In this document: one piece after another, positions 1,907 through 56,184 of the stretch
Numbering within the stretch: position 1 is the stretch's first letter
Layout: every line of letters starts with the position of its first letter
Origin: Sthenelais limicola
Taxonomy: Eukaryota > Annelida > Polychaeta > Phyllodocida > Sigalionidae
Length of the DNA: 64,000 nucleotides
Direction: 5' to 3'
Assembly (NCBI GenBank): GCA_942159475.1
Contig: OW804095.1
Location: 65,810,773 to 65,874,772, forward strand
Program-made: the position numbers and the translations under genes
The notes under the pieces: model-generated
The model's database searches: none
What the model saw: the letters and a program-made list of their open reading frames with translations, nothing else
What the model was told of the DNA's origin: nothing

Positions 1907-2756
1907 ATGAAATGTAAAGACATTTTTAGTCAATGCCAACATCCATTGATACACCTTGTAGTTTGACCAGTCACTCGCCTAATCCGTTCCATAGCCTTAT
2001 CTCAGTTTTACATATACCCACATACAGGTGTTCTTCACAAAAGTACCAAGATGGTTACCATTGACATGTCAGAGTTCAGGGCTGGTCGTTCCGGCAAGAG
2101 GGAATATTACAGGAGGCAATGAGAGTCGAACTACAACCTTTATGTCCACATGAAGGGCGGCCAGGGTTATGCTCATTGTAGTTTTATCTTAGATAAGCAA
2201 CCTACTAATTTAGTTGGAAATTTATTCTGCTGATATGGGTCGTGGGCTATTGTTTGGGGCATGTTTAAATTGACCCTAAGAAGTAATGGCAGAACTAAAC
2301 ACTGTAATGGGCCGTCTCCATCAGATATGCGATGAAATGTAAAGACATTTTTAGTCAATGCCAACATCCATTGATACACCTTGTAGTTTGACCAGTCACT
2401 CGCCTAATCCGTTCCATAGCCTTATCTCAGTTTTACATATACCCACATACAGGTGTTCTTCACAAAAGTACCAAGATGGTTACCATTGACATGTCAGAGT
2501 TCAGGGCTGGTCGTTCCGGCAAGAGGGAATATTACAGGAGGCAATGAGAGTCGAACTACAACCTTTATGTCCACATGAAGGGCGGCCAGGGTTATGCTCA
2601 TTGTAGTTTTATCTTAGATAAGCAACCTACTAATTTAGTTGGAAATTTATTCTGCTGATATGGGTCGTGGGCTATTGTTTGGGGCATGTTTAAATTGACC
2701 CTAAGAAGTAATGGCAGAACTAAACACTGTAATGGGCCGTCTCCATCAGATATGCG
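1907..2756. repeat. 425 bp tandem duplication
   Basis: Two adjacent copies, 1907-2331 and 2332-2756, share a constant offset of 425 bases and read as essentially identical by eye. The junction is direct, with no spacer. Neither copy contains a recognisable gene; each holds the same short minus-strand frame, which is a by-product of the duplication. The near identity implies a recent event or ongoing homogenisation, or an assembly artefact. Confidence 0.93.
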
Positions 2757-5700: not shown

Positions 5701-8139
5701 GATATGATAATAATGGCTCGACATCGGATATTTTGTTGTCCTTTTAATGACATGTATAGGCCTAACTAATCATCTGTCTTTGGCCAAAAGCATTCATGCA
5801 TACAATGATACATATTCAAATATTTGCACCACTTTATTACATGTCAAACCACACGAGGTAAGCGTCTGCTTGAATAAAAGTCATTTCCTTGCCACAGCTT
5901 GAGATGATAATTAATAGTTACATTCGATGAGAGATTGGTATCCCTTTGTTATTGTATATTGTGAAACCCAATAAATGCAGAATAAAGCGAATTCTTGCTC
6001 TAATTTTTTTTATTACTATTACGGCCAAACATTTACAGAATATAACAAAAACGCTCGTTAACCATGTGTACCCTATTATAGTATATAATATTTCATATTT
6101 ATTTGTCTTTTGTGTATATAATCATATACAACAGATCCTACCAGACCATTGTTTCAGAACAAATTGACACTGGTGCAATTTATCAAAATCATTGCTGTAA
6201 TGGTTTGTTAGTCATGCCAAATTGTAATTAGATAATATATTCACATGGCTAACAGGTTTAGGAAATATATAAAGGAGAACGATAAATATTTTTTTTTTTT
6301 TTTTTTTTTACATAACAAATCTTTTTATTCAATATATCAACAAAGCACCGCCGACCCAGCGAATAACATCGAAGTTTTACAGGCGCTGTATGGTCCTCAA
6401 CTCATCGGGGTATCTTGTGTTCGTTACTGAAAAATATGTGCTACACACTAATACTGTTGTTTTTCCTTTCCTTTTTCTTTTTAGCAGAAAAGGAGTTAGG
6501 TTCTATCACTACCGTACACAGTCGTACTAACTAATATCACTATCATAAACAGTCAAATATTTTGAGGGTGGTTACAGATCATTATAAAAGCCTTCCCATG
6601 CTTTAAATTCCTTATCATTGGCAGTGAGAACGATAAATATTAAGAAGACTTGTCAAGGCTTTATATTTATATCGCCCAATCATGATGTTTCGAAGTAGGG
6701 GGAAATTACCAGGAATCATATCGGTGACTTTAGGGATATGCGGATTTATAATATTTAAAGGAGTGTGCACAAACCAGACAGGCTTTGAGTTTAAACGCCA
6801 CATGAATTTATTTATAGGTACAGATCTCGGCATGTAAACAAAATGATGATGATGATGATCACGAAAGACAGGTGATTTAGTTCAATTACGCACACGGATA
6901 CAGGTCCCTATATTTATGAGACACAATATGTCTCAAGGAGAGAAGGGAGCACTGGGCCGAGGACATACGTATAAAAAGTGGTCTTAAGGAAACAGCAATG
7001 AGAAATGTCATATGACCCTCTGATAGATGTTTTTATTCTTTAGTATGTGTATACAGCAATCATCAGACAATACAAAGATATTACAATAGGCCTATACATT
7101 GCACATTGTCAGTTATAATACAGTTAATATGTGTATTCATATATTATATTTGCAGTAAAATACGATCGTCTACCAGTGGATTATACGGTACGAAAAACAC
7201 ACACGTACAGCATGGATGAATTCCAAGAAACAATGAATTCGAAAAGAACATTTGTCAATAATATTGACAAATGTTCTTTTATATACATGATTATTGTGTA
7301 TATTAATAAAATGAAAGCCATAGCTGAATTATATTAGAGACAAGAGCATATTGCCTCAAACATTATATTTGAGAACGATATTTCGAACCAAGTCTATATT
7401 GACCCTGCTGACAGACGTCAACCAACTTCATTTATGCAAAATTGGAAAGCAATTATCGTTCCCAAAACCAAGGGCATAAATCTTCTTCTACCTGAAGGAA
7501 CTTGTCAACTTCTAAAGTTGAACGCCCAGATCGTGCCTATTATCGCCCAGAGTTATCTTAATGATGGCTGGGGGGGCCACCGTCACTCGCCGTGAGACAT
7601 CGCGATGGTCCGTGGAATCTGATTTATTTTTCATCCGAAAAAAAGTTAATTTTTCTGATAGTTACATAAAATTCTTCTGTATAATTGCATATATAGTTTT
7701 AGTTTAGTTTTCGCTCAAATAAGAAAAGAATTTGTGTCAGCGTGTGGCACATATTTGTGCAATTGAATGTCTGTCTAAAAATATCGCTTTAGATATATTT
7801 CCGACATCACAGATTCCTTGCAAGATACAGGTACAGTACTTTCATATATGCGAACGACGGTATGTTGACGGTATGTGTGTGACAGGATGCTATCAAGAGG
7901 TTGAGCTTTTGTTTATTATTGTTATTTGTTATATTAACTTGGAATTTTAGTTCCCATAAAAAAACTAGAAAAATACAATATAAACTGTATAACCCACATT
8001 GAAATTTTAATGTCAGATGACTGAAGGCTTACACCTGGGTTTTATTTCGACACCCATGGAAGACCAGAGCATTTTACCCTTTATCTTTTATCTTGTAAGC
8101 AGTAAACTAACTTGTCTGAAGTAAATGAGTTAACGATCA
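2757..8139. other. non-coding, simple repeats only
   Basis: No gene was recognised. The stretch contains a poly-C run near 3099-3111, three GGGCCC hexamers at 4914-4940, a poly-T run near 6290-6310 and a short palindrome at 7242-7280 that is listed separately. Open frames of 60-90 codons occur on both strands but show no domain, and several overlap each other in different frames. Confidence 0.55.
7242..7280. repeat. 39 bp near-perfect palindrome
   Basis: Two 18-base arms, 7242-7259 and 7263-7280, are exact reverse complements around a 3-base centre. The arm reads AAAAGAACATTTGTCAAT. The loop is too short for a standard microRNA precursor. It could form a cruciform or be a remnant of a small fold-back element. 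No target duplication was identified. Confidence 0.85.
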
Positions 8140-13785: not shown

Positions 13786-13802
13786 AATATTGATATGCGG
13801 AG
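13786..13802. repeat. LINE target-site duplication, left copy
   Basis: AATATTGATATGCGGAG sits directly before the first base of the LINE and is repeated exactly after its poly(A) tail at 20574-20590. The first two A residues cannot be told from the tail, so the true duplication is 15-17 bp. This is the expected mark of target-primed reverse transcription. Confidence 0.93.
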
Positions 13803-14855
13803 GGTTCCGGTTCCGGTTCTGGAAGATGTAAAAGCTAGAGCAAGAGCTTGCTTCTTTTTTTTCAGATACAGGAGTCTACGCAAAAAGCATCGTGCCAAAA
13901 GTTTGCACAAACCTTCATGAAGGTATAGAGAACACCCAAGGATATTGGATCCACGAGCTCTATAAGTCAGTCGAAAAATATAACCATCGATAGATCCGAC
14001 TCGAGTGGACCACGAGAGCGAATCGAAAGACCCGCCAAATCTAAAGGCTACCTCGTGTAGTCGAAGGACTGTAATAGTTACAAAAGCTGTCTCATTGTTT
14101 AATCCTCTACCAAAGTGGCACTAAGGATACATCCAAAGTGCCCCTTCGTCAGGAAGATTCGCATCATAAGTATTGCAAAGGATCTTAATCAAAATGGACT
14201 AAAACTGAAAGTGGTGGTGAAATTCTCCCAACCCGCCATTCATCCCTGGCTCATAGGTTCGGCGAGCGCCGAAGGATTGAACTATACAACAAAAATCTAG
14301 GCTATAGGGAACACAGGAATCCCATAAAAACAGGAATTATAAAAGGATCTGTGAAAAAGGTTTGGTTGCTTAAGAACTATACGGCCGTGACCAGAATAGA
14401 CTTATATTTGAGCTTGCTGAATTTCGGTCATCGACTAGTTGCATACTTGGAAGGCTAAAGAGTGCGCATGCGTACTTAGACAAGGCTACTACTCGATGTG
14501 CTTCGACAACAGAGTGTTTATACTGATATCTAGTTCCTTAATACAGCTTAAAGGCATCCATAAACAATAGCTGAAAAGCATTTCATGAAAAAAAAGTGTT
14601 ACTCAAGCGGCGACGCCACCGCGTGTTCCCTGATTGTCATAAACTGTTTAGTAAATAAGCACGGCATCGAGGAAAAGGTAAAAGTCAACAGCAGTCGACG
14701 GGTCATACGCGTTGCATCGGGTAAACGACACGGTAGACAATATATAGACAGCTATCGCTAGGATAGCAAGACTTCCACATCGCGCACGCGCGAAGGAAGT
14801 AAAGACTGTAAACAATAACAAAGTGCATCAAGCACGTGTGCTCTAGAATAAATCA
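13803..14855 (+). promoter_or_regulatory. LINE 5' UTR (internal promoter region)
   Basis: This is the stretch between the left target-site duplication and the ORF1 start. It begins with a repeated GGTTCC hexamer and contains CpG-rich patches, including a CGCGCACGCGCG stretch near 14780. Full-length LINEs usually carry an internal promoter in the 5' UTR; that role is inferred from position. Short open frames here are not supported as genes. Confidence 0.65.
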
Positions 14856-16307
14856 ATGTCAAAGCCTTCTAATAGTGACCAAATGAGCGGAGCGTCAGAA
14901 AGGAAGAGACAGAGATTAGAAGGAAAGCCCGAAGGTGAAGACAATATGGCCGGCAAAGGAGGGATGGAAGAACTAAAAGATATGATCGCTGGAGTAGCAA
15001 CTCAATGCAATGGGCTTGCAACTCAGATAACCCAGGTTCAAAGCAGTATCGAGCCTGTAGCCAAAATGGCCACGGAAAACAAAGGGGAGATTAAAGATAT
15101 CAAGGATGATAACATAAAAAGAGGTGTTGAAATGTTCAAAGTTAAAAAGAGGTTAGCTACGCAGGAAGATACCGTGGACACTCTTGACAACACAACAGTC
15201 AAGAAAACCGACCCCTGTTTCAGAAAGATGGAAAAAAATGCAAGGGAAGAGGAAAGGAGCAGGCTAAACAAACAGATAGCCGAAAGAGCCAATAATTTGG
15301 TATTCGAAGGATTAACCAAAGATGATGATGATGAATCCGCCGAAGAACTAAAAGACAAGATCGACAGAGTTCTTCATGACGGGCTTGGAATTCATGGGCT
15401 TTACATTAAGAACTTTTTCAGAATGGGAAATATCAAAAATCCCCCAGTGCTTGTACAGTTTGCATCCGCAGCTGATGTGAGCAGAGTCTGGAAGGCCAAA
15501 GGCAACCTGGAGAAATTTACCGTGCAAGACGATGGATCGCAAGTATACATCAAGAGAGATCTACCTGAGGAGATCCAATCCAGAGTTAATAAGGCAAGAC
15601 CAATTGTAAAAGTAGCAAGACTGTCTGGGAAATATAAGAAAGTCTTCAACGTGCACGGAGACGTTATATTAGACAACAGAAGATACCGTCATGACAGGCT
15701 TGACCTGCTGCCAGTGGAATTGGCCCCGTCCATGATATCTAAACGTGAAGACGAGAAAGTTTTCGCTTTTTTCAGCAAACTGAACCCGCTATCTAACTTC
15801 TATTCAACAGAATTTAGTCATGAGGGAAACCAGTTCTTGTGTATGGAACAGTTCTTAGCGTACAAAAAGTCAAGTTTGGAAAATCATCCCGTAAGAACCG
15901 CAACGATACTCACCATGTACGATCCATATGAGTGCAAAAGGATGTTAAGAGACATCGACAACGTCAAGGTCTGCCAAGAATGGGAAGCAAGGGTGGAGGA
16001 CATCCTCGATATAGGCCTAGCAGCGAAAGTCAGGAAAAACCCCATGATAAGAGAATATCTACTAAAAACGGAGGAAAAGGTGATTGCAGAGGCATCCCCT
16101 GCCGACGTGGTATGGGGTGTGGGAAAATCACTCAAGGACGATGGCATCCTCGACCAATCCACTTGGCCTCCCCAAAGCAACCGCCTGGGCAAGGCGTGGA
16201 TGAGGTTGAGGGCAAAGATTGTTGCTGCAGAGAAGAGAAAGGCAGAGCGGCAGGAAGAGTTGAAGGGAGAAGAGGACAACGAGGAGGAGGACATGGACGA
16301 TTGGTAG
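14856..16307 (+). CDS. LINE ORF1 protein with C-terminal NADAR domain
   Basis: A 483-residue protein expected to bind LINE RNA and form the retrotransposition particle. Residues ~1-30 are charged and basic. Residues ~30-150 are Lys/Glu-rich and heptad-like, suggesting a coiled-coil trimerisation region. Residues ~150-290 resemble the RRM-plus-C-terminal-domain core of L1-type ORF1p. Residues ~298-465 are a NADAR (YbiA/DUF1768) domain: a PLSNF motif, MEQF with the conserved acidic E331, a WEAR/NP helix region, VVWGVG around W420-G421, and NRLGKAWMRLR. The tail is Glu-rich. NADAR proteins belong to ADP-ribose/NAD metabolism, and some remove ADP-ribose from guanine in DNA. The ATG at 14856 gives the full coiled-coil. 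The frame is open throughout and the fusion is continuous. Confidence 0.92.
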   Translation: MSKPSNSDQMSGASERKRQRLEGKPEGEDNMAGKGGMEELKDMIAGVATQCNGLATQITQVQSSIEPVAKMATENKGEIKDIKDDNIKRGVEMFKVKKRLATQEDTVDTLDNTTVKKTDPCFRKMEKNAREEERSRLNKQIAERANNLVFEGLTKDDDDESAEELKDKIDRVLHDGLGIHGLYIKNFFRMGNIKNPPVLVQFASAADVSRVWKAKGNLEKFTVQDDGSQVYIKRDLPEEIQSRVNKARPIVKVARLSGKYKKVFNVHGDVILDNRRYRHDRLDLLPVELAPSMISKREDEKVFAFFSKLNPLSNFYSTEFSHEGNQFLCMEQFLAYKKSSLENHPVRTATILTMYDPYECKRMLRDIDNVKVCQEWEARVEDILDIGLAAKVRKNPMIREYLLKTEEKVIAEASPADVVWGVGKSLKDDGILDQSTWPPQSNRLGKAWMRLRAKIVAAEKRKAERQEELKGEEDNEEEDMDDW

Positions 16308-16357
16308 TTAGTGTTTGATGTGGGCTGTGTTTTTGTTTTTGTTTAAATCAATTAATA

Positions 16358-19300
16358 ATGGAAGCCCAAAATAATATGTCGATCTACTTGGCATCGCTAA
16401 ATGTTAATGGTATAAATGGCATCGTTAAGAGGAAAGCAGTGTTTGATATATTGAAAAAGCATGAACATTGCATATTTGCATTACAAGAGACACACAGTGA
16501 CATTTCTACAGAAAAGATCTGGAGACAACAGTGGGACGCGCCCATGCACTTGGTTCATGGAGCGTCCAATTCCAGGGGAGTAGCGATCTTATGTTCGAAA
16601 GGTTTAGATTTAAAAATTTCCTTAAAGGGAGGAGACTGTGAAGGAAGGATAGCTTATATTGACTGTACTCTTGATGAAAAGGAAGTAACCATCATGTCGG
16701 TGTATATGCCAACTAAAGACAAATATAAATACCAAGCTGAGGTTTGTAAGAGAATGAAAGAAATCCTGCTAAGTAAAGCGGATAGAAGTGTTATTGTCAT
16801 GGGAGATCTTAATATGTGTTTGACAGATTTTTCTAGAGATAACCCTCCTGATTATATTAATCAAGCATGTAATGAAGGTGTTAAACAAATGTTTGAATTG
16901 ATGAAGAGTCTAGAGCTCAATGATATGGTCAAAGAGCTAGAACAAGTTGGAAATAATGTAACATGGAGAAGAGGTGAGCAATCGTCCAGATTGGACTATG
17001 TTTTAGTTGATGATTCCTTAAGACCCCTAATTAAAAAACAAGAAGTTCTGGAGTTTGAGCATTCTGATCATCACCTAATAAAGGTAGAAATCATGCTAAA
17101 CACGACCAGGAGAGGGCCAGGATTTTGGAAGATGAATAAGGCACTATTAGACAACAAAGAATATGTTGAATTCATGGAAGAAAAGCTATCCAAAGTCATA
17201 AATGAAGATAAATTCGAAAGTCATATCGCGTTGTGGGAATTCATAAAATTCACGATCAGATCCGAGTCCATAAAATTTTCCAAAGCCAGAGCTAAAGCCA
17301 AGAGAATGCATGAAAACTTATTAAGGGATAGGCTGAAATGTATTAATGAAATAAACAGCTTAAACGATGAGCTATTAATGGAAAGAGAGTCCATTAGGGA
17401 CGAGTTAAAAGCGAATAGCTTAGCTAAAGCACAGGGAGCACTAGCTAGAAGTAGAGCCAAATGGCTCGCCGAAGGCGAAAGACCGACGAAATACTTCCTG
17501 TCGCTGGAAAAAAGAAACTATAGTAAAAAAGTTATATCCCAGTTAGTAGTCAATGATATTGAAATTTGTTCAAGCAAAGAAATACTAAGCGTCGAGAAAA
17601 ACTTCTATGAAAAATTGTATACGCAAGAGTCAGAAGATAGAGATGATCAAATTAATTTTATCCAGAGTGTAGTACCTCCTTATGTGTGCACTGACGACGA
17701 AAAAGCCAGACTAAACAGAAGTTTCGAAGATAAGGAGATTTGGAATGCGATCCAATCGGTCAAGGGCGACAAAGCCCCAGGTTCTGATGGTATAACGATT
17801 GAATTTTACAAGTGTTTTTGGGACATACTTGGTCCAGTTTTCAAGAATATGATTGTAGAATGCAAGGAAAACAAATCTTTATCTAATGAAATGTATAGAG
17901 GCGTTATATCTGTTATTCCCAAAAAAGAGTGTGATTTAAGGCTACTCAAAAACTGGAGACCAATATCCTTACTGAATACGGATTATAAAATTCTGTCCAA
18001 AACGCTGGCAGAAAGAATTAAAGTTGTCTGCCCAAGGCTAGTCAATGAAGATCAGGTGGGCTTCGTCAAGGGTAGGTACATTGGTAGCGCAATAAGGAGG
18101 ATAGAAGACACGGTGAGCTTTCTGGAAAAACATGAGAAAAAAGGATTGATTGTGTCCTTGGACTTCCAGAAAGCTTATGATACGGTTTCCTGGAGGTTTT
18201 TGATTGAATGTTTAAAAGAACTAGGTCTAGGTGAAAATTTTGTCGAATGGGTGGAAATACTATTGAAAGGTTCGAGATCGTGTGTTATTAACAATGGGTT
18301 TACTTCTGACTGGTTCGCCATAGAAAGAGGGGTAAAGCAAGGAGACCCAATATCATCACAATTATTCATTTTAGTGGTCGAGAAGCTCGCAGAAGCCCTA
18401 AGAGCAGCTCCGGAATGTAAAGGCATTAGTATTGGAAACACAGTAAACAAAGTAGCCCAGTTTGCGGACGACTTAACCATTTTCGCTAAAAATGAGGCCG
18501 ATATGTGTAATATGATAAAGATCATAGAGAAGTTTGGAAGTGTGTCTGGGTTAAAACTCAATGTATGTAAGACCCAAGGGTTCAATGTAGGCGGCAGTCC
18601 CCTGGACATGCAAATTTCACACGATATTTCATGGGTGTCTGATATGAAAGTGCTAGGTATTGTATTAACATACCCTTATGACCAAGAAAAACAGAACAAG
18701 CTAAATTTCGAGCCGATCATGGAGAAAGCAGGTAAATGTATTGCCCACTGGTCTAGAAGGGATATCTCTCTTAAGGGCAGAGTTTTAGTGGCAAATTCCT
18801 TAATCGCTCCTCTATTTATGTATGCGGCCAGTATGATCAGTGCCCAAAACCACTATATCAAGTCGTTTCAAACGAAAATAGAGAAGTTTATATGGAAGGG
18901 AGGAAAAACGATGGTCGCAAGGAAGTATATATGTCAGAAAACCTGCGATGGAGGTTTGAACTTGCATGACATCGAATCTAGAGTTTATGCCGCCAAATTC
19001 ATGTGGATTAGGAAAATGTTAAATGAGCAGCACTTAAAATGGACCGCTTATATTAGACAGGCCGTGGGTGAAGATCTGCTAAGCACTTTTAGAAAGAGGT
19101 CGAAACCAAAATACACTTATTCGTGTTTTTATGATGATTTGATTGACCTGTGGAACAGATTCTATGTATTAAAGGAGCCGACTTCGAAAAAGGAAGTATT
19201 GTGTGAGGGAATCTGGAAAAACATACACCTACAAGTCGAAAAAAAAGTTGTGAAGTGGGAAGAATGGAAAAAGAAAGGTATTTCCAAAATTAACGACTTA

Positions 19301-20128
19301 GTAGAAGGTAATAAGGTTAAAAAGGTCAACCAATTTTGGTCTGAGAATAGAATCAAAATCAACTTCGTCGAAAGGTTCCAGATAAGAGATATCATTCCCA
19401 GAAAATGGTGGATTCTACTATGTGATGGCTCGGAGGTGAACTTCAAAAATGAGCTTGTATGTAATTTCAAAGACAAAAAGATTAACATCATGTCTACGAA
19501 TGCCAAAGAGTTATATATAGCCTTGAAAGAAGTCATTATTGGTAAAGAGGAGCGAAACATCATATGGGTTGAAAAGTTTGCCAATAAAGGTATCGATATA
19601 TCTGGGGTTGAACCCACAGAGTGGTATATGTTGCCGTACCTGTGCACCAGAAATGTAAGAGTCCAGACCTTCCAGTATAGAGTTATCAATCGGCTCACCG
19701 TGTGTAATCTCAAGCTAGAGAAATATGGTTTTAAAAACACTATTATCTGTGATTATTGTGAAGAAGTCGACGATGTTTTCCATTTTTTCATTGATTGTGA
19801 ACGTGTGAACAATTTATGGCACACCTTAATCAATTGGGCCAGCCGCAACAGATGGTTAGACTGCGAAATACTCGATGACATTAATGCCGCACATTTGATC
19901 TTGGGCATTCCGTCCAACGATGTAAAACATAGAAGGTTAAACTTTATATTCCTAAAGGCCAAATTCTATATTTACAGAACGAGATTATTCCATGAGAATA
20001 AAGTGTGCTTTTTCGAATTTCTACGAGAAATCAAGATAGCCATTAGAGCGCTCAAAGATTGCACTAAATTTGGACCGGTGAACGAAAAGGAATATAAACT
20101 ATGGGAGGGATTTTATGAGGAATTGTAA
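16358..20128 (+). CDS. LINE ORF2: APE endonuclease and reverse transcriptase
   Basis: A 1256-residue enzyme that nicks the target and copies the LINE RNA at the nick. The N-terminal ~240 residues are an exonuclease-endonuclease-phosphatase fold: SLNVNG near residue 13, LQETH with E44, MGDLN, SRLDYVLV and HSDHHL. The reverse transcriptase follows at about 470-760, with NWRPISLLN, a motif A aspartate at D602 (SLDFQKAYD), VKQGDPIS and the FADD box at 702-705. The C-terminal part has a zinc-knuckle-like C-x2-C-x7-H-x4-C at 1131-1147, as in L1/Tx1 elements. It starts 50 bases after ORF1 in another frame, so a reinitiation-type mechanism is likely. No stop or frameshift is visible. Confidence 0.97.
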   Translation: MEAQNNMSIYLASLNVNGINGIVKRKAVFDILKKHEHCIFALQETHSDISTEKIWRQQWDAPMHLVHGASNSRGVAILCSKGLDLKISLKGGDCEGRIAYIDCTLDEKEVTIMSVYMPTKDKYKYQAEVCKRMKEILLSKADRSVIVMGDLNMCLTDFSRDNPPDYINQACNEGVKQMFELMKSLELNDMVKELEQVGNNVTWRRGEQSSRLDYVLVDDSLRPLIKKQEVLEFEHSDHHLIKVEIMLNTTRRGPGFWKMNKALLDNKEYVEFMEEKLSKVINEDKFESHIALWEFIKFTIRSESIKFSKARAKAKRMHENLLRDRLKCINEINSLNDELLMERESIRDELKANSLAKAQGALARSRAKWLAEGERPTKYFLSLEKRNYSKKVISQLVVNDIEICSSKEILSVEKNFYEKLYTQESEDRDDQINFIQSVVPPYVCTDDEKARLNRSFEDKEIWNAIQSVKGDKAPGSDGITIEFYKCFWDILGPVFKNMIVECKENKSLSNEMYRGVISVIPKKECDLRLLKNWRPISLLNTDYKILSKTLAERIKVVCPRLVNEDQVGFVKGRYIGSAIRRIEDTVSFLEKHEKKGLIVSLDFQKAYDTVSWRFLIECLKELGLGENFVEWVEILLKGSRSCVINNGFTSDWFAIERGVKQGDPISSQLFILVVEKLAEALRAAPECKGISIGNTVNKVAQFADDLTIFAKNEADMCNMIKIIEKFGSVSGLKLNVCKTQGFNVGGSPLDMQISHDISWVSDMKVLGIVLTYPYDQEKQNKLNFEPIMEKAGKCIAHWSRRDISLKGRVLVANSLIAPLFMYAASMISAQNHYIKSFQTKIEKFIWKGGKTMVARKYICQKTCDGGLNLHDIESRVYAAKFMWIRKMLNEQHLKWTAYIRQAVGEDLLSTFRKRSKPKYTYSCFYDDLIDLWNRFYVLKEPTSKKEVLCEGIWKNIHLQVEKKVVKWEEWKKKGISKINDLVEGNKVKKVNQFWSENRIKINFVERFQIRDIIPRKWWILLCDGSEVNFKNELVCNFKDKKINIMSTNAKELYIALKEVIIGKEERNIIWVEKFANKGIDISGVEPTEWYMLPYLCTRNVRVQTFQYRVINRLTVCNLKLEKYGFKNTIICDYCEEVDDVFHFFIDCERVNNLWHTLINWASRNRWLDCEILDDINAAHLILGIPSNDVKHRRLNFIFLKAKFYIYRTRLFHENKVCFFEFLREIKIAIRALKDCTKFGPVNEKEYKLWEGFYEEL

Positions 20129-20573
20129 ACCTTGCTCATGTTGGTATATAGTACGATAGAGTAGAACTGACGTACAAAAGGATAACACATGTGTAGTGAT
20201 GATAGTTATGTGATCCTTTCCTTTTCTTTTTATTTTTTGATAAAATGTACCCCAAAGGGAGATTGTCTAGTTTAAAATTAAATTGCGTAAAATGAAGTCA
20301 TAACAGGAGCTAGGTGTGTACACAATTCCAATGACGATAAGAAGCCGTACAAATATCCAAAAACACTGTAGTAAGGTAACGGATTTTATTAGATGTTAAA
20401 GTATAGCAAGCAAGGTAAAATCTTCGAACCTCATTTCAGAAGAAGGTACAAAACGAAAAAGTATACGCACATACAAGAAATTTGATATAAGAGCGATGTA
20501 ACACATTGTCAAGCTCTTTAAATGTTGCCTCTGTCTGATTTTTGAATAAAGACCCGGTGTTGGGAAAAAAAAA
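20129..20573 (+). terminator. LINE 3' UTR, polyadenylation signal and poly(A) tail
   Basis: The non-coding tail of the element includes a pyrimidine-rich stretch near 20215-20240, an AATAAA signal at 20545-20550 and a terminal A run from about 20564. The right target-site duplication abuts the A run. In L1-type elements this region is the template for priming. Confidence 0.9.
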
Positions 20574-20590
20574 AATATTGATATGCGGAG
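20574..20590. repeat. LINE target-site duplication, right copy
   Basis: An exact second copy of the 17 bases at 13786-13802, directly after the poly(A) tail. The absence of mismatches supports a young insertion. Confidence 0.93.
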
Positions 20591-32297: not shown

Positions 32298-32369
32298 AGG
32301 CACCACCGAGGTTCGAACTCGGGCTCCTGGATTCAAAGTCCAATGTGCTCACCACTACACCATGGCGCC
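32298..32369 (-). tRNA. tRNA-Gln (anticodon TTG)
   Basis: The 72-base minus-strand sequence folds into a complete cloverleaf. The 7 bp acceptor stem has one G-T pair, the D stem is GTGT/GCAC and the T stem CCGAG/CTCGG encloses a TTCGAAC loop. The anticodon loop CTTTGAA reads TTG, which decodes CAA glutamine. Box A (TGGTGTAGTGG) and box B (AGTTCGAACCT) are present. A TTTT polymerase III terminator follows shortly after the 3' end on the minus strand. There is no intron and no encoded CCA, as usual for animals. The intact stems and the terminator argue against a SINE-derived copy. Confidence 0.95.
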
Positions 32370-44515: not shown

Positions 44516-47500
44516 ATGAACATGGCATTTTCAAACTGGGAACTACAACTAATTACTCGAGGATTTAATGATAGGTTATCATTGGTGATATGGGCCTTGG
44601 AGAATGATGTTCTTTCTCATCGCATTGTACAAGAAAGACTTACGAATTTAGAATCTGCATTACAAAGGGTAAGTTTGTATATTATTTTACCGCTAATATT
44701 GATAATTATTTTAAAATTACAGTAGACCATCATATTATACTAAATATAAGTGAGCCAGTGAGTGAGTGAGTGAGTGAATGAGTGAGCGAGCGAGCGAGCG
44801 AGCGAATGGATAAGTACATGAGTAAATGCTGTCAGTTTTATCTAAACAAGCATTATTTTATTTACTTATAATAGGCAGAGACGAGAGGGCAAGCGTGGCA
44901 GCCGTCACCTAATTGCTTTAACACCATACGCTCGCGAGACTTAAACCAACAAGATAATTCACAACTTGGTATCTTCGGCGCTCATCACAAGCGTGCTATA
45001 CGCCAGAACCCTAGTACCGCAACACCTGATACTCCCTTGAATGATAGCACAGCTGGAGTGATAAATAAGACTGATAAGAGAGCACAACCACGTCCTTCAT
45101 GTTCAGCCTCTAATGATAGTGACAGTGTTTCTAATAAAAGCAAAATACGAGTATACAGCTGTCCGTTTTGCAATGCAGAGTTTAGAATTAGGAACGATTG
45201 TCGAAATCACCAGAGTAAATGTTCAAAGAGAAAAGGAAAAGAAGAGAATTCAGTAAATGGTAATAATACATGCGATAACTGCAAGAGAACATTTTCATCG
45301 AGCGTGGCTCTGAGACTACACAGAAGACATTGTCACTCAGAGAAATGTTTTTATAAGTGTCAGAAGTGCAATCGACTGTTTAACTCTTCTCAAAGCTTGA
45401 ACAATCACACAAGAACTTCTTGTGATAAACCTTGTAAATTTCAATGTAAATATTGCAGTCGTAATAACTTTACATCTAATAAAACTGCAATGATTCACGA
45501 AGGAAAATGCCCTGCTCAATTCCCCTGCAACATTTGCGGTCATAGAAGTAAAACAATAAAAGACAGAACCATACACAACCGACAGCACGCTAAAGAAAGG
45601 GCTAGATTTACGTGTAGGAAATGTTCTAAAAAATTTGCCAACAGGAGAGATTTAATATATCATCGATCAGTTATGCATGGCGGAGCAGACAATGGTAGAG
45701 AACTACAAAACGAACCTTGGGATAGACAACCCTGGATTGATGAAGACAATAGAATAAACGATGATTTGGATTATATTTTTAGGGCAAACAGAGGTCATAT
45801 ACTAGCCAATCACCAACGCGGTAATCTAGCATCAATTTACAATTTTCCAACTGATAATATTTCAGGAGGAATTGAAGAATTGATTAGACATCTAGAAAGA
45901 GCATTTGAAGAACAAACTCATACGTTCAAAATAAACCTAGCTTTAGGATTGGTATTACGACACAGAGAAACGGGCGAATTCAGATACTTTGTTGGTCATA
46001 ATAATAATACATTTTTCAATGAACCAATTCAAGTTTCATCTAGAAGAGATCTACAGAGAGTTATTGAGAGGCTACGTGAAATGGACTGGATGAACTATTA
46101 TGCAGTTAATAGGCCTAATACGAAATGGGAATTATATTTCATAACAAATGTGTTGGTTTATGTTACCAATACATACTATCCTCTAGGGAAAGGTAATCTT
46201 CCTGAGCATATCAAAAATGATGCATCAATTAGAGGGTTAGACACTTACAAGAGCGGCACTGCTATCAAAGATAACCTTTGTGTATTTAGATGCTTATCAA
46301 TCCATCTTGAGAATGATGATAAATGCATGGAGCAGACGTCTGTTAAGTATTATCATCAATGGCGGGCGTACTTAACAGAGCGGTTGGATATATCAATTCC
46401 TAAAGATCCTAATCTATACAAAGGTTTAGATTTTACATTTCTTCCAGAGTTAGAAAGATGTTTTGGAATATCGATTAACATTTATGACAAGCAACCAGAC
46501 GCATCAGTTATTGTGACATACTTATCAACCTTTGAATATGAATCTGTAATGTATCTAAACGTGCATGAACATCACTTGTCCTACGTTATGAGATTTGAAG
46601 TATATGCTCATAAATTCCAATGTCACATGTGTAATCGACTGTTTAAAAAGAATGATTATTGCAAGAAACATTCAAAAACATGTGGGAACATTACCTATTT
46701 GGATTACAAGAATGGATTTCATACAAATCCAAAAACAATTTTCGAGCAGATGGAAGAATATGGCATTGTTGTTCCACTGAGTGATAGGATATTTGAATAT
46801 TTTTCAGTATTCGACGCCGAAGCTATCCTTGAGAGAGTTGATGAAGGTTGCGCTGATAAATTAAAATGGAAACATGCTCACCGAGCAATATCAGTAGCAA
46901 TAAGTAGCAATGTTCCTGGATATACAGAACCGATTTGCTTTGTCAATCCAGATCTTAAAATGCTAACTAATTCTTTTATAGATTATCTATATGAAATTCA
47001 AACGAAATCCCACGAACTATGCATGCAAAAATGGAATACTGCTCTTATTCAATTGGAAGAGTTGAAAAATAAATGGACTATTGAGAAACAGAGAGATCAA
47101 CAGCAACAGGGAAATGAAGAGGGAGGAGAGGAGGAGATGAGAGAGGAGGAGGAGGAGGAGGAGGAGGAGGAGGAGGAGGAGGAGGAAGAGGAGCAGGAGG
47201 ATGAGGAGAATGAGGAAGATCGAAGAGAGAAAACACCAATTCAAAGTTGTTCTTCTTCTAAGATAATGTCAAGAGCTGTACATTGTCTGTATAAGAAATT
47301 TACAGACTATATTTCAGTTCTACCTGTACTAGGATTTAATTCCTCGAACTATGACATAAACTTATTTAAGTCTGAAATCTTTGAATCCCTAGATCTAGGA
47401 GATAATAAGAACTCATTTGTTGTGAAAAGAAACAATGCATATATGACAATATGTACTGAAAAACTGAAATTTTTAGATATTTGTCAATACCTTGCACCTG

Positions 47501-50262
47501 GAACTAGTTATGCAAAGTTTCTAGCTGCATATCATGTTGAAGAGAAGAAAGGATTTTTTCCTTATGAATACTTAGATGATCCGATGAAATTAGATGAAAC
47601 AGCATTACCACCACATGAAGCATTCTACTCAGACCTAAAAGGGAAGAACATTTCTGAGGATGAGTACGAACAAGTGAAACAGACTTGGCACGACGAAGGG
47701 ATGCTAACGATTAGAGATTTACTTGTTCATTATAATATTTCTGATGTGGGTCCATTTGTTACAGGTGTAGTCAGAATGCAAAAGTTTTACTTTGATAGAA
47801 ACATTGATATGTTTAAGATTTCATTATCGGTTCCTGGAATATCCAGAAGGCTTTTATTTCAATCAGCTTTGAAGGATGGATCATACTTCCCAAGAATGGG
47901 TAATATTAATGAAGATTTATATATGACATATAAGAAGAACATAGTAGGAGGGCCCTCTATTGTATTTCACAGATATCACAAAGCGAATGAAACATACATA
48001 AGAGGAGGAGAAGAAATAGTTCAAAAGATTATTGGGTATGATAGCAATGCATTGTATTTATGGTGCATAGCTCAAAAAATGCCAACAGGTTTTTTCGTGC
48101 GTAGACATGAGGAGAAAAACTTTAAACCAGAGAGACATGGCACAAATACTATAATGTATGTTTGGTTGGAGTGGATGCAGTATACAACAGGCGTTAAGAT
48201 ACATCATGCATTGAACAATTCTAATGAGATAATGATCGGTCCATATTATTTAGATGGACACTCAGTAAAATCAAATGGAGATCGCACAGGGTTTGAATTC
48301 TATGGGTGTTATCATCACGGGCACGACTGCATGAAAGGTCAAATGGATGAAGATCGCAGGCTCAAAAGTTTTAATAGAACTGAAAAGAGGAGAGAGTACA
48401 TTATGAATCAAGACATAAAACTAGTAGAAATGTGGGAGTGCGAATTCAGGATGGAAATGAAATCCAACATAGAGATCAAGAGTTTTTCGAACAGATTATT
48501 TCCTCTTTTCTATCGCACTCATCCTAGAGAAGTATCAACTGATGAAATTATATCCGCAGTGGAAAATGATCAACTGTACGGCTGTGTTGAATTAGATTTA
48601 CACGTGCCATTGAAATGGTCTCAAGGTAAAGAGAAACATCTACCACCTATGGAGTACTTTGGAGAAATGTCTCCATTATTTTGCACAACTGACATTCCTA
48701 TGGATCAAATAGGAGAGCATATGATTCAACATATGAATGAGAATAATCTATCTACTAAATCTCGAAGATTACTTGTTGGTGGAATGGCTGCTAGAAAGAT
48801 TCTTATTAGTACGCCATTGTTGAAATGGTATATTGATATCGGACTTGTTGTGACGCGTATTTATCAAGTTGTTGAGTTTGTTCCTCAAACTTGTTTCGCT
48901 TCATTTGAAAAGGAAGTAACAAATGCTCGTCGTGAAGGAGATAAAGACGAGTCACAAGCAGTCATAGCAGAATTATTCAAATTGATTGGGAACAGTGGTT
49001 TTGGGGGCCTCATTCTTTCAAAGGAAAACCACAAAAACGTTTCATATTCAAAGGATATAATGAAGGTTTCCAAAAAGATTAACGCTCCTCAGTTTAGAAA
49101 GCTAACAGAGCTAGCGTCTGATTTTTGGGAGGTTGAGTCTGCAAAGAAGAGGATCGTACTTGACCTTCCCATATATCTGGGTTTTACAATATTGCAGTAC
49201 GCCAAACTTAAAATGTTGCAATTCTATTATGATTGTGTAGATGTTTATCTACAAAGAAAGTCTTTCCAATACATAACTATGGATACAGACAGTGCATATC
49301 TATGTATTTCAAAAACGAATTTTGAATCAGCAGTTATACCCAGTAGAAAAGCTGAATATCTGGATGCAATATACAATCGATGCTGTGATACTAAAAGTGC
49401 AAAATGGTTTATCAGACAGTGCTGTGATAAACACAAGGCGTTTGATCGGAGAGTTCCTGGAGTAATGAAAGAAGAAGCCACAGGTGATCAGATAGTAGCA
49501 TTAGGAAGCAAGACGTATGTGATAAGCAATGGACGTGATACCAAACTGAGTTGTAAAGGTGTAAACAAATCCCATGTTTTAAATCCAGTAGACCTATACA
49601 AATCTGTGATAGATTCCCGATCGGTTAAAGAAGGAAGTATTAGAGGGTTCAGAGCTGTGAATAATACAATTTTCACATACACACAACAACGAGATGCGTT
49701 TTCATATTTTTATTGCAAACGCATCGTACATCAAGATGGAATATCAACCACTCCGCTAATGATAGAGCTGTCTCCTTGGGCTTCTGTACCAGACTGGTAT
49801 GGTTTCTCGGGGAAGAACAATCCATTATCTCCTGAATATTCATGCGATTTAATATATAGAGGCTTTACATTTTCATCGGCAGAACATTTGTATGTTTTTA
49901 GAAAAGCTACATATTTAGGAGATACAGACGCATCTCAAGAACTGATTAGACCGTTCATATCTTCATGTGATATACAAAGCATTAATAAGAGAATTAAGAA
50001 CAGTACAAAGTGGAACGCCGAAAGAGACAATGTAATGGAAGATATACTTATTCTAAAAACAGAAACATGTACTGACGTATCAAACGCCTTAAATGACTCA
50101 GCCAATAGACCTCTTGTATACTCTTTGAAAAGAGAAAGATATTGGGGTGCTGGAGTATGCAGCAAGGTACTGCTACTTAGTACAGAGACTGAGCTTAAAG
50201 GGCGGAACCAGTTAGGTAGACTATGGGAAGAAATTCGGATATTACTTCAGGTTGATCCTTAG
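44516..50262 (+). CDS. Polinton family B DNA polymerase with zinc fingers, OTU-like and NADAR domains
   Basis: Spliced gene: exon 1 44516-44668, intron 44669-44874 (GTAAGT..ATAG), exon 2 44875-50262, phase 0, 1846 residues. An in-frame TGA directly precedes the first ATG; the second ATG at 44522 has a better Kozak context. In order there are a helical N-terminus, C2H2-like fingers (about 45150-45690) and a possible OTU-like cysteine-protease fold (DNLCVFR near 46270, HEHHLSYV near 46570). A single finger follows near 46615, then the 3'-5' exonuclease with FDAE (D698), NSSNYD and YNISD. A Glu-rich spacer splits the exonuclease. Polymerase motifs are YDSNALY (D1107), KLIGNSGFGG (K1420) and MDTDSAY (D1521). 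The last ~155 residues are a NADAR domain (E1721, WGAG at 1808, GRNQLGRLW). It replicates the element, presumably with protein priming. Confidence 0.95.
44669..44874 (+). other. polymerase intron with GAGT/GAGC microsatellite
   Basis: A 206-base intron with donor GGTAAGT and acceptor TTATAATAG. It joins exons in phase 0 and removes an in-frame TAG at 44872. It contains a GAGT/GAGC tetranucleotide run at about 44756-44806. Without splicing the long polymerase frame has no ATG near its 5' end; it opens at 44875. Confidence 0.88.
47137..47225. repeat. coding (GAG)n tract in polymerase
   Basis: A GAG/GAA run encodes about 25-30 consecutive acidic residues between the exonuclease I and II motifs of the polymerase. 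Its length is likely to vary by replication slippage. The frame is kept, so the insertion is tolerated as a flexible linker. Confidence 0.9.
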
Positions 50263-50278
50263 AAAAACAGAATACATT

Positions 50279-50965
50279 ATGGAGGTGGATATTCCTAGTT
50301 TTACATTTTATTCTCCGTGTACAATAAATGCCAGCGGTTGCACAAGTTCGGGTAAGACGTTTTTCACAAAACGACTGATTGAAAGCAGAAATACAGCTTT
50401 TCAAACACCCCCTACAGAAGTGATATACTGCTATGGCGCATGGCAAAAAATATTTGAAGACATGCCCGGTGTTACATTTCAAAATGGTTTACCTGATGAT
50501 TTGGATAGCATAGGAGATGGACATAATCATACACTGTTGATATTAGACGATTTGATGCAATTAGTTGTTGAAGATTCTAAAGTTCAACAGCTATTTACAC
50601 GCGGCTCTCATCATAGAAATATTACAGTTATCTATTTGAATCAAAACATGTTTTGTCAAGGTCGATACGCTCGCACAATCAGCTTGAATTGCCACTACTT
50701 GCTTCTGTTTAGAAATCCTAGAGACATCCATCAAATTTCAACACTAGGAAAACAGCTAGGCCTAGGAAAGTTATTAGTCGATGCTTATAAAAGTGCCACA
50801 TCAGAACAATTTGGTTATTTGCTTGTAGATCTTTCACCTCATAACAGAACTTCATATAAACTGAAGAGTAATGTTTTACCAAAGGAAAATACATTTCAAA
50901 ATGGAGATAAGAGAGAATCACAAGTATCAACCGAGCAGGAGGAAGGTGTTATTGTATACATATAA
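50279..50965 (+). CDS. FtsK/A32-type genome-packaging ATPase
   Basis: A 228-residue ATPase expected to pump element DNA into capsids. Walker A is GCTSSGKT at residues 20-27 and Walker B is LLILDD ending at D90-D91. A sensor-like NQNMF follows near residue 120, as in Polinton and poxvirus A32-like packaging ATPases. The ATG at 50279 was chosen because the frame further upstream opens with a TTG that overlaps the polymerase stop; this leaves 16 bases after the polymerase. Length is typical for the family. The Lys/Glu/Gln-rich C-terminus after the ATPase core has no recognised motif. Confidence 0.94.
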   Translation: MEVDIPSFTFYSPCTINASGCTSSGKTFFTKRLIESRNTAFQTPPTEVIYCYGAWQKIFEDMPGVTFQNGLPDDLDSIGDGHNHTLLILDDLMQLVVEDSKVQQLFTRGSHHRNITVIYLNQNMFCQGRYARTISLNCHYLLLFRNPRDIHQISTLGKQLGLGKLLVDAYKSATSEQFGYLLVDLSPHNRTSYKLKSNVLPKENTFQNGDKRESQVSTEQEEGVIVYI

Positions 50966-51096
50966 GCGAGCAATACACAAAGCGCATGTGCAAGTACCGA
51001 CATTGGAGTATGGATATGTGATTACGTCCCCAGTTGCAAGAGATCCACAGAGCATACAACATCGCAATGATACAATGGTTATCTGTTAAATAGAGA

Positions 51097-51615: not shown

Positions 51616-52063
51616 GAGATATCAAGCATTTTTAAAACAAGCAAGTATTCAGAAAAATACTGAATCATCACAACCAGATTTAGACAAGAGTAGCGCCAGC
51701 ACAGATTCTATAATAAAAACAATCCAAAAAGAAGATGGAAAATATGAAGAGGAACAACTATGTAATGATAATTCGAGAGAGATTCCGAAAAACACAAAAG
51801 ACACACAGGAAGGTGAGGACGTTCTTCCTATGCTCACTAACAAGCTGTCTTCCGAGGAAAAGAAAAGACAGCTCTTAGAACTTCTACATGAAACATTGGT
51901 TGGTTATGGATCAACAAAACCAATGACAAAGAGCAGAAAGAGAAAAGGGGTTGATTCAAATCTAAAGTCTGTTCCACCTCCACCTGGAATACCTATATTA
52001 AAAAAATCGAAAGAAATTAGTAAAACAAAAACCAGTAAAAACTGGAACACTATGTGGCAATGA
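51587..52063 (+). CDS. unrecognised Polinton protein before integrase
   Basis: 158 residues if the ATG at 51587 is used, 155 if the ATG at 51596 (reading MILIPYERYQ) is used. The frame further upstream opens only with TTG. The N-terminal PYERYQ motif, a polar middle, a short predicted helix (LSSEEKKRQLLELLHETLVG) and a basic Pro-rich end resemble a short protein often found beside the integrase in Polintons. No enzymatic motif is visible. It overlaps the preceding gene by up to 29 bases, and its TGA overlaps the integrase ATG in ATGA. Coding status is supported by its length, its position and these tight joints. Confidence 0.65.
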   Translation: MRRMILIPYERYQAFLKQASIQKNTESSQPDLDKSSASTDSIIKTIQKEDGKYEEEQLCNDNSREIPKNTKDTQEGEDVLPMLTNKLSSEEKKRQLLELLHETLVGYGSTKPMTKSRKRKGVDSNLKSVPPPPGIPILKKSKEISKTKTSKNWNTMWQ

Positions 52064-53256
52064 ATGAATATTTAACAAACGTATTCTACACCCCATCTGA
52101 TCCTGACTCATTTGGAGGACCATCTAAGCTCTACAAACGAGCTAAAAGAGATGGACACACATGGAGAATTAAAGATGTGCAAAATTGGTTGGACGAACAG
52201 GAGGCTTATACACTATTTAAACCTTCCAGACTTAGACCTAAATCGACAAATGTCATAGTATCAGACAAGCATTATGAATATGACATAGACACTATGAACA
52301 TGGTAAAATGGTCTAAGTATAATGATAAATTTGCATACGTTTTGGTGATCATTGATATTTTCACAAGAGTATCATATGTGTATCCATTGTATACATTACA
52401 AGGGAAAGAAATAAGAGATGCATTAAAAGAACAATTCAACATATCAAAACCTCGAGTAGCAAGAACAGATGGTGGAACTGAATTTAACAATTCATTTGTC
52501 AAGCAACTCTTTACTGATGAAGGAATTCGACATTGGGTTACTAGAAATACTCTCACAAAAGCTAATTATGCAGAAAGGCTAATTAAAACATTAAAAACTC
52601 GAATGGTAAAGATATTATATCACAATGAATCTTACAGATGGATAGACATACTTCAAAAAGTTAATGAGGCTTATAATAATTCTGTTCATAGATCAATACG
52701 TATGACTCCATTCCAAGCATTGCAAGCTGATAAAGTTAAACTATGGAACATACAATATAAACCAAAATTAGATGATAAGGAGACAATGAAAAAACTAGCC
52801 AAAAGCAGAAGAGAAAAAAGAATGGGCATAAAAAAACTAGACATAAAAAGCAGACGTTCTTCTAAAAATAGACGACCTCCTCGTCCTAAGTCAATATTTA
52901 AATTCAAAGTAAATGACGTTGTTAGGGTTGTTTGGATGAAAAGAGCATTTTCCAGGGCTTATGATGTTCAAAATAGCCATGAGCTGTTTGTTATAACAGA
53001 AGCCTTTAATAAAGCTGGAGTTGCTCACTACAGATTAAAAAGCTGGGCGAATCAACCTATAGATGGAATATTTTACAACGAAGAATTAGTAAAGGCGATA
53101 GTTACAGATGATACTGTTTATAAAATATCGAAAGTAGGAAAGAAAATAATAAGGCGAAATGGAGTCCAAGGTCGGATTGTTTCTTGGAAAGGCTGGCCTC
53201 GTCAATATGATTCATGGGTGAGCATGCATGAAATTAAAGATATTCAAAGTTTGTAA
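52060..53256 (+). CDS. Polinton integrase (D,D35E) with chromodomain-like tail
   Basis: 398 residues. A retroviral-type integrase that inserts the element into host DNA and makes the 6-bp target duplication typical of Polintons. The catalytic triad is D75 (YEYDIDTM), D137 (RTDGGTEF) and E172 (NYAERLIKTLK), giving the canonical 35-residue spacing. Residues ~240-310 are basic. The C-terminal ~45 residues (RRNGVQGRIVSWKGWPRQYD and onward) look like a chromodomain, a hallmark of Polinton integrases thought to guide chromatin targeting. The start is the ATG of an ATGA overlap with the preceding gene; the frame upstream opens only with GTG. No frameshift is seen, and all catalytic residues are present. 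Confidence 0.96.
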   Translation: MNEYLTNVFYTPSDPDSFGGPSKLYKRAKRDGHTWRIKDVQNWLDEQEAYTLFKPSRLRPKSTNVIVSDKHYEYDIDTMNMVKWSKYNDKFAYVLVIIDIFTRVSYVYPLYTLQGKEIRDALKEQFNISKPRVARTDGGTEFNNSFVKQLFTDEGIRHWVTRNTLTKANYAERLIKTLKTRMVKILYHNESYRWIDILQKVNEAYNNSVHRSIRMTPFQALQADKVKLWNIQYKPKLDDKETMKKLAKSRREKRMGIKKLDIKSRRSSKNRRPPRPKSIFKFKVNDVVRVVWMKRAFSRAYDVQNSHELFVITEAFNKAGVAHYRLKSWANQPIDGIFYNEELVKAIVTDDTVYKISKVGKKIIRRNGVQGRIVSWKGWPRQYDSWVSMHEIKDIQSL

Positions 53257-54340: not shown

Positions 54341-55723
54341 ATGGCTATGATTTTAAACGAAGCTGTTGAAGGATATGATGAGAAACTAGCACTTTTTTCG
54401 GTTCCATTTGTCGAGACAGGCATCCAGCAAAAATTTTGTCGAGACTATTACCCAATTGGTCAAGTTTCTGGATCAAACGTTTTGGAATTTGATATTCCAA
54501 ACAATTCTAGTGAATACATTTATCTAAAAGAAGCTAAGCTGTATCTGGCATTACAGATTGTAGGAGATAATGGAGTACCGATAACCAGTGTTGATAATGT
54601 AGGGTTAATCAATGCCCCTGCAGCTAGCATATTTAAACAATTAGAAATAAATTTTCAACAAACGACGATCACAACAAGTGTAGGATCTCATTTTCCTTAT
54701 AAAAGTTTATTTGACATTTTATTAAATAGTGGATATTTTGAACAGGAAACTGAGCTATTTGTTAGCGGTTTCACAAAAGATGAACCTGGTTATATGGATA
54801 CTCTACCAAAATCAGCAAACATCGGAGCAACAAAGAGAGCTATTCAAACTGAAGATGGAAGAATAATGACAGTCTCCACTCCTCTTCTCATGGATATTGC
54901 TCAACTGGATAAGTGCATTTTAAATGGCGTTCCAATAAACATCAAGTTCTTTCCCTGCACAGATGAGTTCAGACTAATGTATTCCCCGTACACAGCTCCA
55001 CCTACTCCGGCCACTAAATCATCGTCCGAAGACGCAACCACTGACTCTACCCCAGCCCCGCCCGTTAGAACTAGTAGGCGCTATTCATTGGAAATAAAAC
55101 ATGCCGTCTTTAAGGTTCCATTTGTAAAAGTTCACCCTGGATTACTTTTATCGCATGGAAAAACTCTTGAAAAGCAGCCGGCTGTATATCCATTCACTCG
55201 CTCGGATATAAAGTCATTTAATATTCCAGCGAATAGCTATGATTTCTCCACTGAGAATCTATTTCAAGGTAACATTCCTAAAAGACTTGTTTTAGGTCTT
55301 GTATCTTCAGCGGCTTTTAGTGGTCGATGTAATTTAAACCCATTTAACTTTCATCACTATTCCCTGCGTAACTTATCATTTGAAATTGGAGGAATAAGTG
55401 TTCCCGGAAGACCTTATGACTTAGATTTTGAACAAAAGAACTATATTTCTGCATATAGCGATATGATAGAATCCAGAGCGGCCGGTCAAACCAGCATACC
55501 AAATATTGCATACAGCGATTACGCCAATGGTTATGCGCTATTAACCTTAGACTTGGAGCATACTAAATCTCAATTCTTTCAAAACCCTAAAGAATCAGGA
55601 AATACAAGACTTTCATTGAAGTTTAAAGAACCTCTACCAGAGCCGGTTACTCTTATATGTTATGGAACATTTGACTCTGTTATGAATATAGACTTTGCAA
55701 GAAATATTATATTACATCTCTAA
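54341..55723 (+). CDS. major capsid protein, double jelly-roll type
   Basis: 460 residues. It matches the Polinton major capsid protein in length, in position between core protein and protease, and in sequence pattern. Examples are an N-terminal LALFSVPFVETGIQQKFCRD, long strand-rich stretches, and FPYKSLFDILLNSGYF before the first domain boundary. A Ser/Thr/Pro-rich loop lies near residues 225-248. In Polinton-group viruses this protein forms the pseudo-hexameric capsomers. The ATG at 54341 lies 9 bases after the previous stop and is followed by a second ATG two codons on. No disabling change is visible, so capsid formation remains possible. Confidence 0.92.
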   Translation: MAMILNEAVEGYDEKLALFSVPFVETGIQQKFCRDYYPIGQVSGSNVLEFDIPNNSSEYIYLKEAKLYLALQIVGDNGVPITSVDNVGLINAPAASIFKQLEINFQQTTITTSVGSHFPYKSLFDILLNSGYFEQETELFVSGFTKDEPGYMDTLPKSANIGATKRAIQTEDGRIMTVSTPLLMDIAQLDKCILNGVPINIKFFPCTDEFRLMYSPYTAPPTPATKSSSEDATTDSTPAPPVRTSRRYSLEIKHAVFKVPFVKVHPGLLLSHGKTLEKQPAVYPFTRSDIKSFNIPANSYDFSTENLFQGNIPKRLVLGLVSSAAFSGRCNLNPFNFHHYSLRNLSFEIGGISVPGRPYDLDFEQKNYISAYSDMIESRAAGQTSIPNIAYSDYANGYALLTLDLEHTKSQFFQNPKESGNTRLSLKFKEPLPEPVTLICYGTFDSVMNIDFARNIILHL

Positions 55724-55728
55724 TCATA

Positions 55729-56184
55729 ATGGATGAATACCAAGTTCGTAGAGCTCTTTTAGATATAGATGTTTTACGCTTGAACTATGAACTATATGTT
55801 TTACCGTATGATCTTTTACCCGATCAACCAGTTTCTCCTGCTGTTTATATAATCAATACTGGACCTTCATGGTCTAGAGGTTTGCATTGGACTGTTGTTT
55901 TATTTCCGTCTGCTGATAATAATAATGGATGTATTCCTGAGTTTTTCGATAGCTTAGGAAAAAGGGCGAATGAATATAACATAGCAATTGAAGAATTTAT
56001 ATTCAAAGCTCATTCAAAGTATATGTATAATTCAAAACAAATACAATCATCAGATAGTCTTGTTTGTGGGCAATTTTGTTTGTTATATGTATATGCTCGA
56101 ATCCATGATAAAAAAACATTTCAATACTTTGTCAATATATTTGGAGAAGATCTCCATGAAAATGATTCACTTGTTTATTTTTAA
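55729..56184 (+). CDS. adenain-like cysteine protease
   Basis: 151 residues. A maturation protease expected to cut capsid and core precursors. Active-site residues line up with adenovirus protease: His53 (GLHWTVV), Asp74 (EFFDSLG), Gln106 and Cys113 (CGQFC), with the seven-residue Gln-Cys spacing of that family. The length is slightly short of adenain. The gene starts 5 bases after the major capsid stop and ends directly at two overlapping polyadenylation signals, so it closes the rightward core cluster. All catalytic residues are present. Confidence 0.93.
   Translation: MDEYQVRRALLDIDVLRLNYELYVLPYDLLPDQPVSPAVYIINTGPSWSRGLHWTVVLFPSADNNNGCIPEFFDSLGKRANEYNIAIEEFIFKAHSKYMYNSKQIQSSDSLVCGQFCLLYVYARIHDKKTFQYFVNIFGEDLHENDSLVYF

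Follow-up and report, generated by a model that had tools for sequence, protein, structure and literature searches.

Proteins with NADAR domains have been described, in the accessible portions of the relevant reports, as stripping ADP-ribose from guanine in single-stranded DNA (PMC11543638; PMC11125620) and from guanine in RNA, where phosphate ends are not substrates (PMC11833690). NADARs are reported missing from vertebrates. As far as the available part of one further study goes, one lineage of Gypsy elements in Ectocarpus has a NADAR domain in Pol, and divergent NADAR matches occur in several oyster ORF1 proteins (ORF, open reading frame) of Tx1 long interspersed nuclear elements (LINEs); RNA processing was proposed for these domains (PMC12477816). 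Here we describe a LINE within a 64,000-nucleotide stretch of the genome of the annelid Sthenelais limicola (GCA_942159475.1, contig OW804095.1, positions 65,810,773 to 65,874,772, forward strand; hereafter the window). The C-terminus of its ORF1 protein is a complete YbiA-type NADAR kept by selection. Judged by the same part of that study, the fusion is a new member of a kind already in print, and its novelty is lower than the initial annotation of the window, made from the sequence alone, had supposed. The element comprises the following features:

13786..13802, plus strand: left copy of the target-site duplication, 17 bp, identical to 20574-20590; its initial A's may be part of the tail
13803..20573, plus strand: complete L1-type LINE of about 6.8 kb, with 5' untranslated region, ORF1, ORF2, 3' untranslated region and short A tail
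14856..16307, plus strand: ORF1, 483 amino acids, a single open frame from ATG at 14856 to TAG at 16305-16307
15741..16250, plus strand: NADAR domain of ORF1, YbiA type, residues 296-465
16358..20128, plus strand: ORF2, 1256 amino acids, open frame, L1-like apurinic endonuclease and reverse transcriptase
20574..20590, plus strand: right copy of the target-site duplication, a 17-bp direct repeat

The ORF1 protein has the domains of the L1 ORF1p type, namely a coiled coil (residues 36-143), an RNA recognition motif (RRM, about 144-235) and a C-terminal domain (CTD, about 236-291), followed by the NADAR and an acidic tail. ORF2 matches RVT_1 (8.1e-41) and Exo_endo_phos (2.9e-9) in Pfam, and its best match among PDB sequences is human L1 ORF2p (2.8e-94, residues 5-875), R2 being next (1.5e-24). 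The 3' end carries AATAAA at 20545 and a run of A's. By its ORF1 domains, its ORF2 similarity and its A tail and duplication, the element belongs to the L1/Tx1 group.

The initial annotation had placed a NADAR on the LINE ORF1 protein, and the PF08719 profile bears this out, matching residues 310-455 with an E-value of 1.3e-24 (87.7 bits; Pfam cut-off 35.1), as does TIGR02464 on residues 305-455 (2.8e-27). The span it gave (15747-16250, residues 298-465) agrees with the predicted domain, the frame indeed runs uninterrupted from the RNA-binding core into the NADAR within one 483-residue ORF, and the motifs that it cited are found in the protein. It made no mention of the complete insertion with its duplication, of the L1-like ORF2 or of a second NADAR in the window (below). 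Comparison with PDB sequences returned 8bau from Phytophthora (1.6e-7) and, more weakly, YbiA (2b3w; 0.033), and the predicted structure has the YbiA fold, as had been anticipated. A chance joining of a NADAR gene to a LINE by assembly or annotation, to which we give practically no credence, is refuted by the single frame, by the perfect duplication around the element and by five dispersed copies at 93-98% that carry the NADAR.

The partial text of PMC11543638 available to us names 13 contact residues, which we placed on ORF1 through a sequence alignment with 8bau. Nine are the same in ORF1 (E43, K50, K75, R79, W89, R93, E125, D130 and W133), and the YbiA-type residues are all in place: E43 corresponds to E331, K50 to K338, E125 to E412, D130 to D417 and W133 to W420. 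We then surveyed 50 NADARs, reduced at 90% identity, in which the LINE type is represented by 32 rows (the window, 15 database proteins and 16 host sequences). Among these, E43 and E125 are present in 32/32, W89 in 32/32, W133 in 31/32 and D130 in 29/32 (the other three have Asn), and K50 is Lys or Arg in 30/32. It is conceivable that the domain is a binding module, either an ADP-ribose reader or a nucleic-acid clamp, in which hydrolysis is irrelevant; a pure binder, however, need not keep both E43 and E125, and we consider this reading unlikely.

At the DNA level, ORF1 has 42 matches in the host genome (1.13 Gb, 161 contigs). Six of them, counting that in the window, are full or near-full length at 93-100% identity; the rest comprise a 97% piece that is the start of one of those six, short fragments at 94% and 99%, and 33 matches at 64-72%. 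The five further close copies (93-98% DNA identity) lie elsewhere in the genome with the NADAR in place. Besides the window we read nine copies (L065 from residue 146 onward), these five and four from the more distant set, and the nine contact residues shared with 8bau, as named in the part of PMC11543638 consulted, are unchanged in 10/10. The conserved Glu and Trp-Gly stressed by the initial annotation are likewise retained in ORF1 and in related copies.

The ratio of nonsynonymous to synonymous substitution (dN/dS) of the NADAR in the five close copies against the window is 0.14, 0.19, 0.25, 0.10 and 0.17, and it ranges over 0.06-0.41 in 16 of 21 close pairs, where some values rest on few changes. 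For the distant set, dS against the window is saturated and dN is 0.16-0.17. Because these counts take in decay after insertion, the real constraint is, if anything, stronger. L060 (483 amino acids) and L062, L063 and L064 (472 amino acids) are open, as is L059, whose coiled coil has an in-frame deletion.

Relatives of ORF1 were sought among 5.8 billion proteins, about 8000 candidates being scored per search. Among the scored candidates, 15 passed with ORF1 alone and 17 with an alignment, giving 19 distinct proteins, of which 16 (P0001-P0012 and P0016-P0019) have the ORF1 core and all of these the NADAR or its start; P0009, P0018 and P0019 are incomplete, and the last two, which stop within the NADAR, stand outside the residue counts above. 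Median pairwise identities in a 13-row alignment are 36% for the NADAR, 32% for the RRM, 37% for the CTD and 17% for the coiled coil, which puts the conservation of the NADAR close to that of the RNA-binding core. The active site is retained even where identity to the window ORF1 is no more than 21-27%. P0013 and P0014 were rejected as ORF1s by eye. P0015 is a different kind of protein, 567 amino acids long, with the NADAR in mid-protein and, by eye, zinc knuckles ahead of it that Pfam does not see; it may be a retroelement protein of yet another kind that bears a NADAR.

These data bear on the idea that a host or bacterial domain was captured and merely hitch-hikes without use. Some copies are dead, as this idea would allow: L057, L058 and L061 have frame breaks N-terminal of the NADAR, and L061 also has a stop at codon 337, within it. 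However, a dN/dS well below 1, an active site kept across such divergent proteins and the recurrence of the domain in Polintons as well as in two LINE clades (below) all speak against it, and we regard it as very improbable.

The second LINE clade comes from the host genome, where PF08719 gave 5561 loose candidates and at least 150 loci above the Pfam cut-off (150/150 scored); the weakest of these best 150 has 103.7 bits, above the window ORF1, so that 150 is a lower bound. Open frames of at least 400 amino acids contain 127 of the 150. Ten loci of 9.9 kb each were drawn from the best 150, and at nine an endonuclease-reverse transcriptase ORF, or pieces of one, comes after the NADAR ORF (Pfam was run on four of the nine). 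Eight ORF2s from these loci share 26-82% identity among themselves across most of the protein, as against 20-26% with the window ORF2, where the aligned stretch spans 213-397 residues for seven of them and 715 for the other; two of the ORF2s match L1 ORF2p at about 1e-16 in the reverse transcriptase part only. Given this low identity and the weak match to L1 ORF2p, these elements form a separate LINE clade. The start of their ORF2 has what we take to be a resemblance to the CR1/L2 group.

A small ORF, esterase-like by eye, lies between the NADAR ORF1 and ORF2 in this clade (L049 3726-4433; L052 3704-4354). Frames next to the NADAR ORFs in L021, L024, L030 and L037 look like GDSL esterases by eye, with weak or no Pfam support (0.0086 for L049, at the L021 locus; no match for L052, at the L024 locus). 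One locus, L055, has a frame with reverse transcriptase and GIY-YIG (1721-3871; Penelope-like) and, 3 kb away, a 162-residue open frame that is nearly all NADAR (7255-7680); two more NADAR frames of 162 amino acids are found on host contig C1. On contig C4, a polymerase-type and a LINE-type NADAR (16579703-16580185 and 16584728-16585153) stand 5 kb apart.

A six-frame scan with a profile built from the ORF1 set found two NADARs only in the window, that of ORF1 and one at the end of a putative Polinton polymerase:

44875..50262, plus strand: putative Polinton DNA polymerase B ORF, 1795 amino acids stop to stop, with N-terminal C2H2 fingers and C-terminal NADAR
49777..50259, plus strand: NADAR of this polymerase (profile match on residues 1660-1790, E=9.8e-18), catalytic Glu replaced by Tyr
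52039..53256, plus strand: Polinton integrase, rve 7.6e-7, 29.8 bits, slightly under the cut-off of 32.6
55675..56184, plus strand: Polinton adenovirus-type protease, Peptidase_C5 3.1e-4, 20.9 bits, slightly under the cut-off of 21.3

The integrase and protease, both slightly below their Pfam cut-offs, point to a Polinton/Maverick in the region 44.9-56.2 kb. The polymerase ORF has no PolB match in Pfam, PDB sequences or PHROGs; its label as a DNA polymerase B is suggested by KLIGNS.GG and DTDS, seen by eye and presumably polymerase motifs, together with the adjoining Polinton genes. Terminal inverted repeats were not found, no 14-mer being common to 38-46 kb and reversed 56-64 kb, and an end may fall outside the window. 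A candidate packaging ATPase lies within 50216-56184 (Pox_A32, weak, 0.047), and a 463-residue ORF at 54332-55723, for which Pfam has no match, may encode a capsid protein. Elsewhere in the window there are an exact direct repeat of 300 bp (1907-2631) and a tRNA gene on the minus strand (32298-32369).

The polymerase-NADAR fusion is widespread in the host genome, and of 28 such NADARs read, 24 have Tyr and 4 have Phe at the position of E125, so that they lack the Glu expected of a YbiA-type hydrolase. A region search of the 5.8 billion proteins for polymerase-NADAR homologues passed 0 of 164 candidates. In a first tree the lone window polymerase NADAR was an unplaced long branch. A second tree, with 19 host polymerase rows added and the long rows L055_5 and L002_4 excluded, set all transposon-type NADARs apart from 16 prokaryotic, viral and stand-alone ones with support of 90/92, which is insufficient, in a sample without stand-alone animal NADARs. 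IMG/VR viral contigs gave no match for the window polymerase, ORF1 or ORF2, for ORF1 subset A2 or for polymerase set A5; the NADAR-only alignment A4 found two viral NADARs there, and no retrotransposon ORF was seen at the one of these two loci that was read (L002). Prokaryote genomes yielded 14 NADAR loci, with no transposon contamination by eye in the three inspected (L015, L016, L005).

What could the domain do for the LINE? The ORF1 protein would form a trimer via its coiled coil, and the RRM and CTD would coat the element RNA, so that RNA and target-site cDNA would be lined with many copies of the hydrolase. The latter would take ADP-ribose off guanine bases, and the nucleic acid of the element would stay readable for translation and reverse transcription despite marks left by ADP-ribosyltransferases of the host or of invaders. 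The NADAR would then be a counter-defense built into the retrotransposon ribonucleoprotein. Such a protective role, with an enzymatic activity that is itself predicted, fits because the active site is kept and because NADAR activity on guanine-ADP-ribose in single-stranded DNA and in RNA has been published in the articles cited at the outset, as far as their accessible text goes; we put its probability at about 0.5. Clams, according to the available part of PMC11209040, have a guanine-N2 DNA ADP-ribosyltransferase.

Several observations weigh against protection of guanine. Four of the 13 contacts (G78, V81, Y84 and D86; partial text of PMC11543638) are changed in ORF1, including Y84 (adenine stacking) and D86 (ribose binding) of 8bau, which face Val within a gapped part of the alignment where the match is less sure; R79 and R93 vary among other LINE NADARs; and in the closest four database ORF1s the median identity of the NADAR (64) is below that of the RRM (71) and CTD (72). 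The Scabin-like ADP-ribosyltransferase family had 0 matches in the host genome, in a search whose control was also silent (0/14 genomes) and which therefore carries no weight either way. Furthermore, YbiA is known to cleave riboflavin intermediates, and the substrate may be another N-glycoside. It seems possible, if somewhat improbable, that the ORF1 NADAR is an active N-glycosidase on protein ADP-ribose, a damaged nucleotide or a small molecule derived from NAD near the ribonucleoprotein. The changed Y84 and D86 contacts are in line with this, published authors call the targets of orphan NADARs unknown, and nematode SNA-3 NADARs work in trans-splicing on an unknown substrate; on the other hand, fusion to an RNA-binding protein points toward nucleic acid, and several kinds of NADAR already act on guanine-ADP-ribose.

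ADP-ribosylation of nucleic acids has been described in toxins and toxin-antitoxin systems. A mobile element that retains an eraser of guanine-ADP-ribose on its RNA-binding protein predicts such marks on its RNA or cDNA, and the question lends itself to testing, because it comes with a specified element, substrate and residue for mutation. NADARs are carried by several unrelated kinds of mobile element, and the Polinton polymerases offer a natural contrast, with the same fold and the catalytic Glu consistently replaced. More tentatively, and with confidence well short of even, selfish elements in this lineage could repeatedly use the NADAR as an anti-ADP-ribosylation module, its active site intact on at least two LINE clades and the domain, in a separate Polinton lineage with the fixed exchange of Glu for Tyr or Phe, serving as a reader or a different enzyme; guanine ADP-ribosylation would then be an unrecognized defense against transposons. 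Neither the second LINE clade, nor the extent within a single genome, nor the polymerase fusion and its fixed exchange was found among the literature matches listed, preprints and most subscription journals being outside the scope; within this scope, NADAR with Polinton returned no paper, NADAR with Maverick unrelated titles only, and NADAR with transposable element one relevant title (PMC12477816).

Compared with human LINE-1, the element shares the coiled coil, RRM and CTD of ORF1p and the endonuclease and reverse transcriptase of ORF2p. To our knowledge, human ORF1p has no NADAR. E. coli YbiA (2b3w) is a stand-alone protein that clears riboflavin intermediates, whereas the ORF1 NADAR is fused. 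The Phytophthora nicotianae NADAR 8bau (PMC11543638, in part) has the fold and 9/13 ADP-ribose contacts in common with ORF1, but it is no retrotransposon protein, and its Y84 and D86 align with Val. DarT1-linked NADAR antitoxins (BC4488 family) share the superfamily and the presumed reaction; they carry Asp where ORF1 has Glu412, and by the definition in the accessible text of PMC11543638 the ORF1 domain is not of the antitoxin type. Roniviruses with a NADAR (PMC11287256, available part) are, like this LINE, selfish RNA replicons carrying the domain, although they are RNA viruses and not retrotransposons. Likened here by description only, the Tx1 LINEs of the Pacific oyster have the NADAR on the ORF1 protein, as in the window; the portion of PMC12477816 available gives a few sentences to NADAR fusions and does not cover selection, the second LINE clade or Polintons, which are described here for S. 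limicola.
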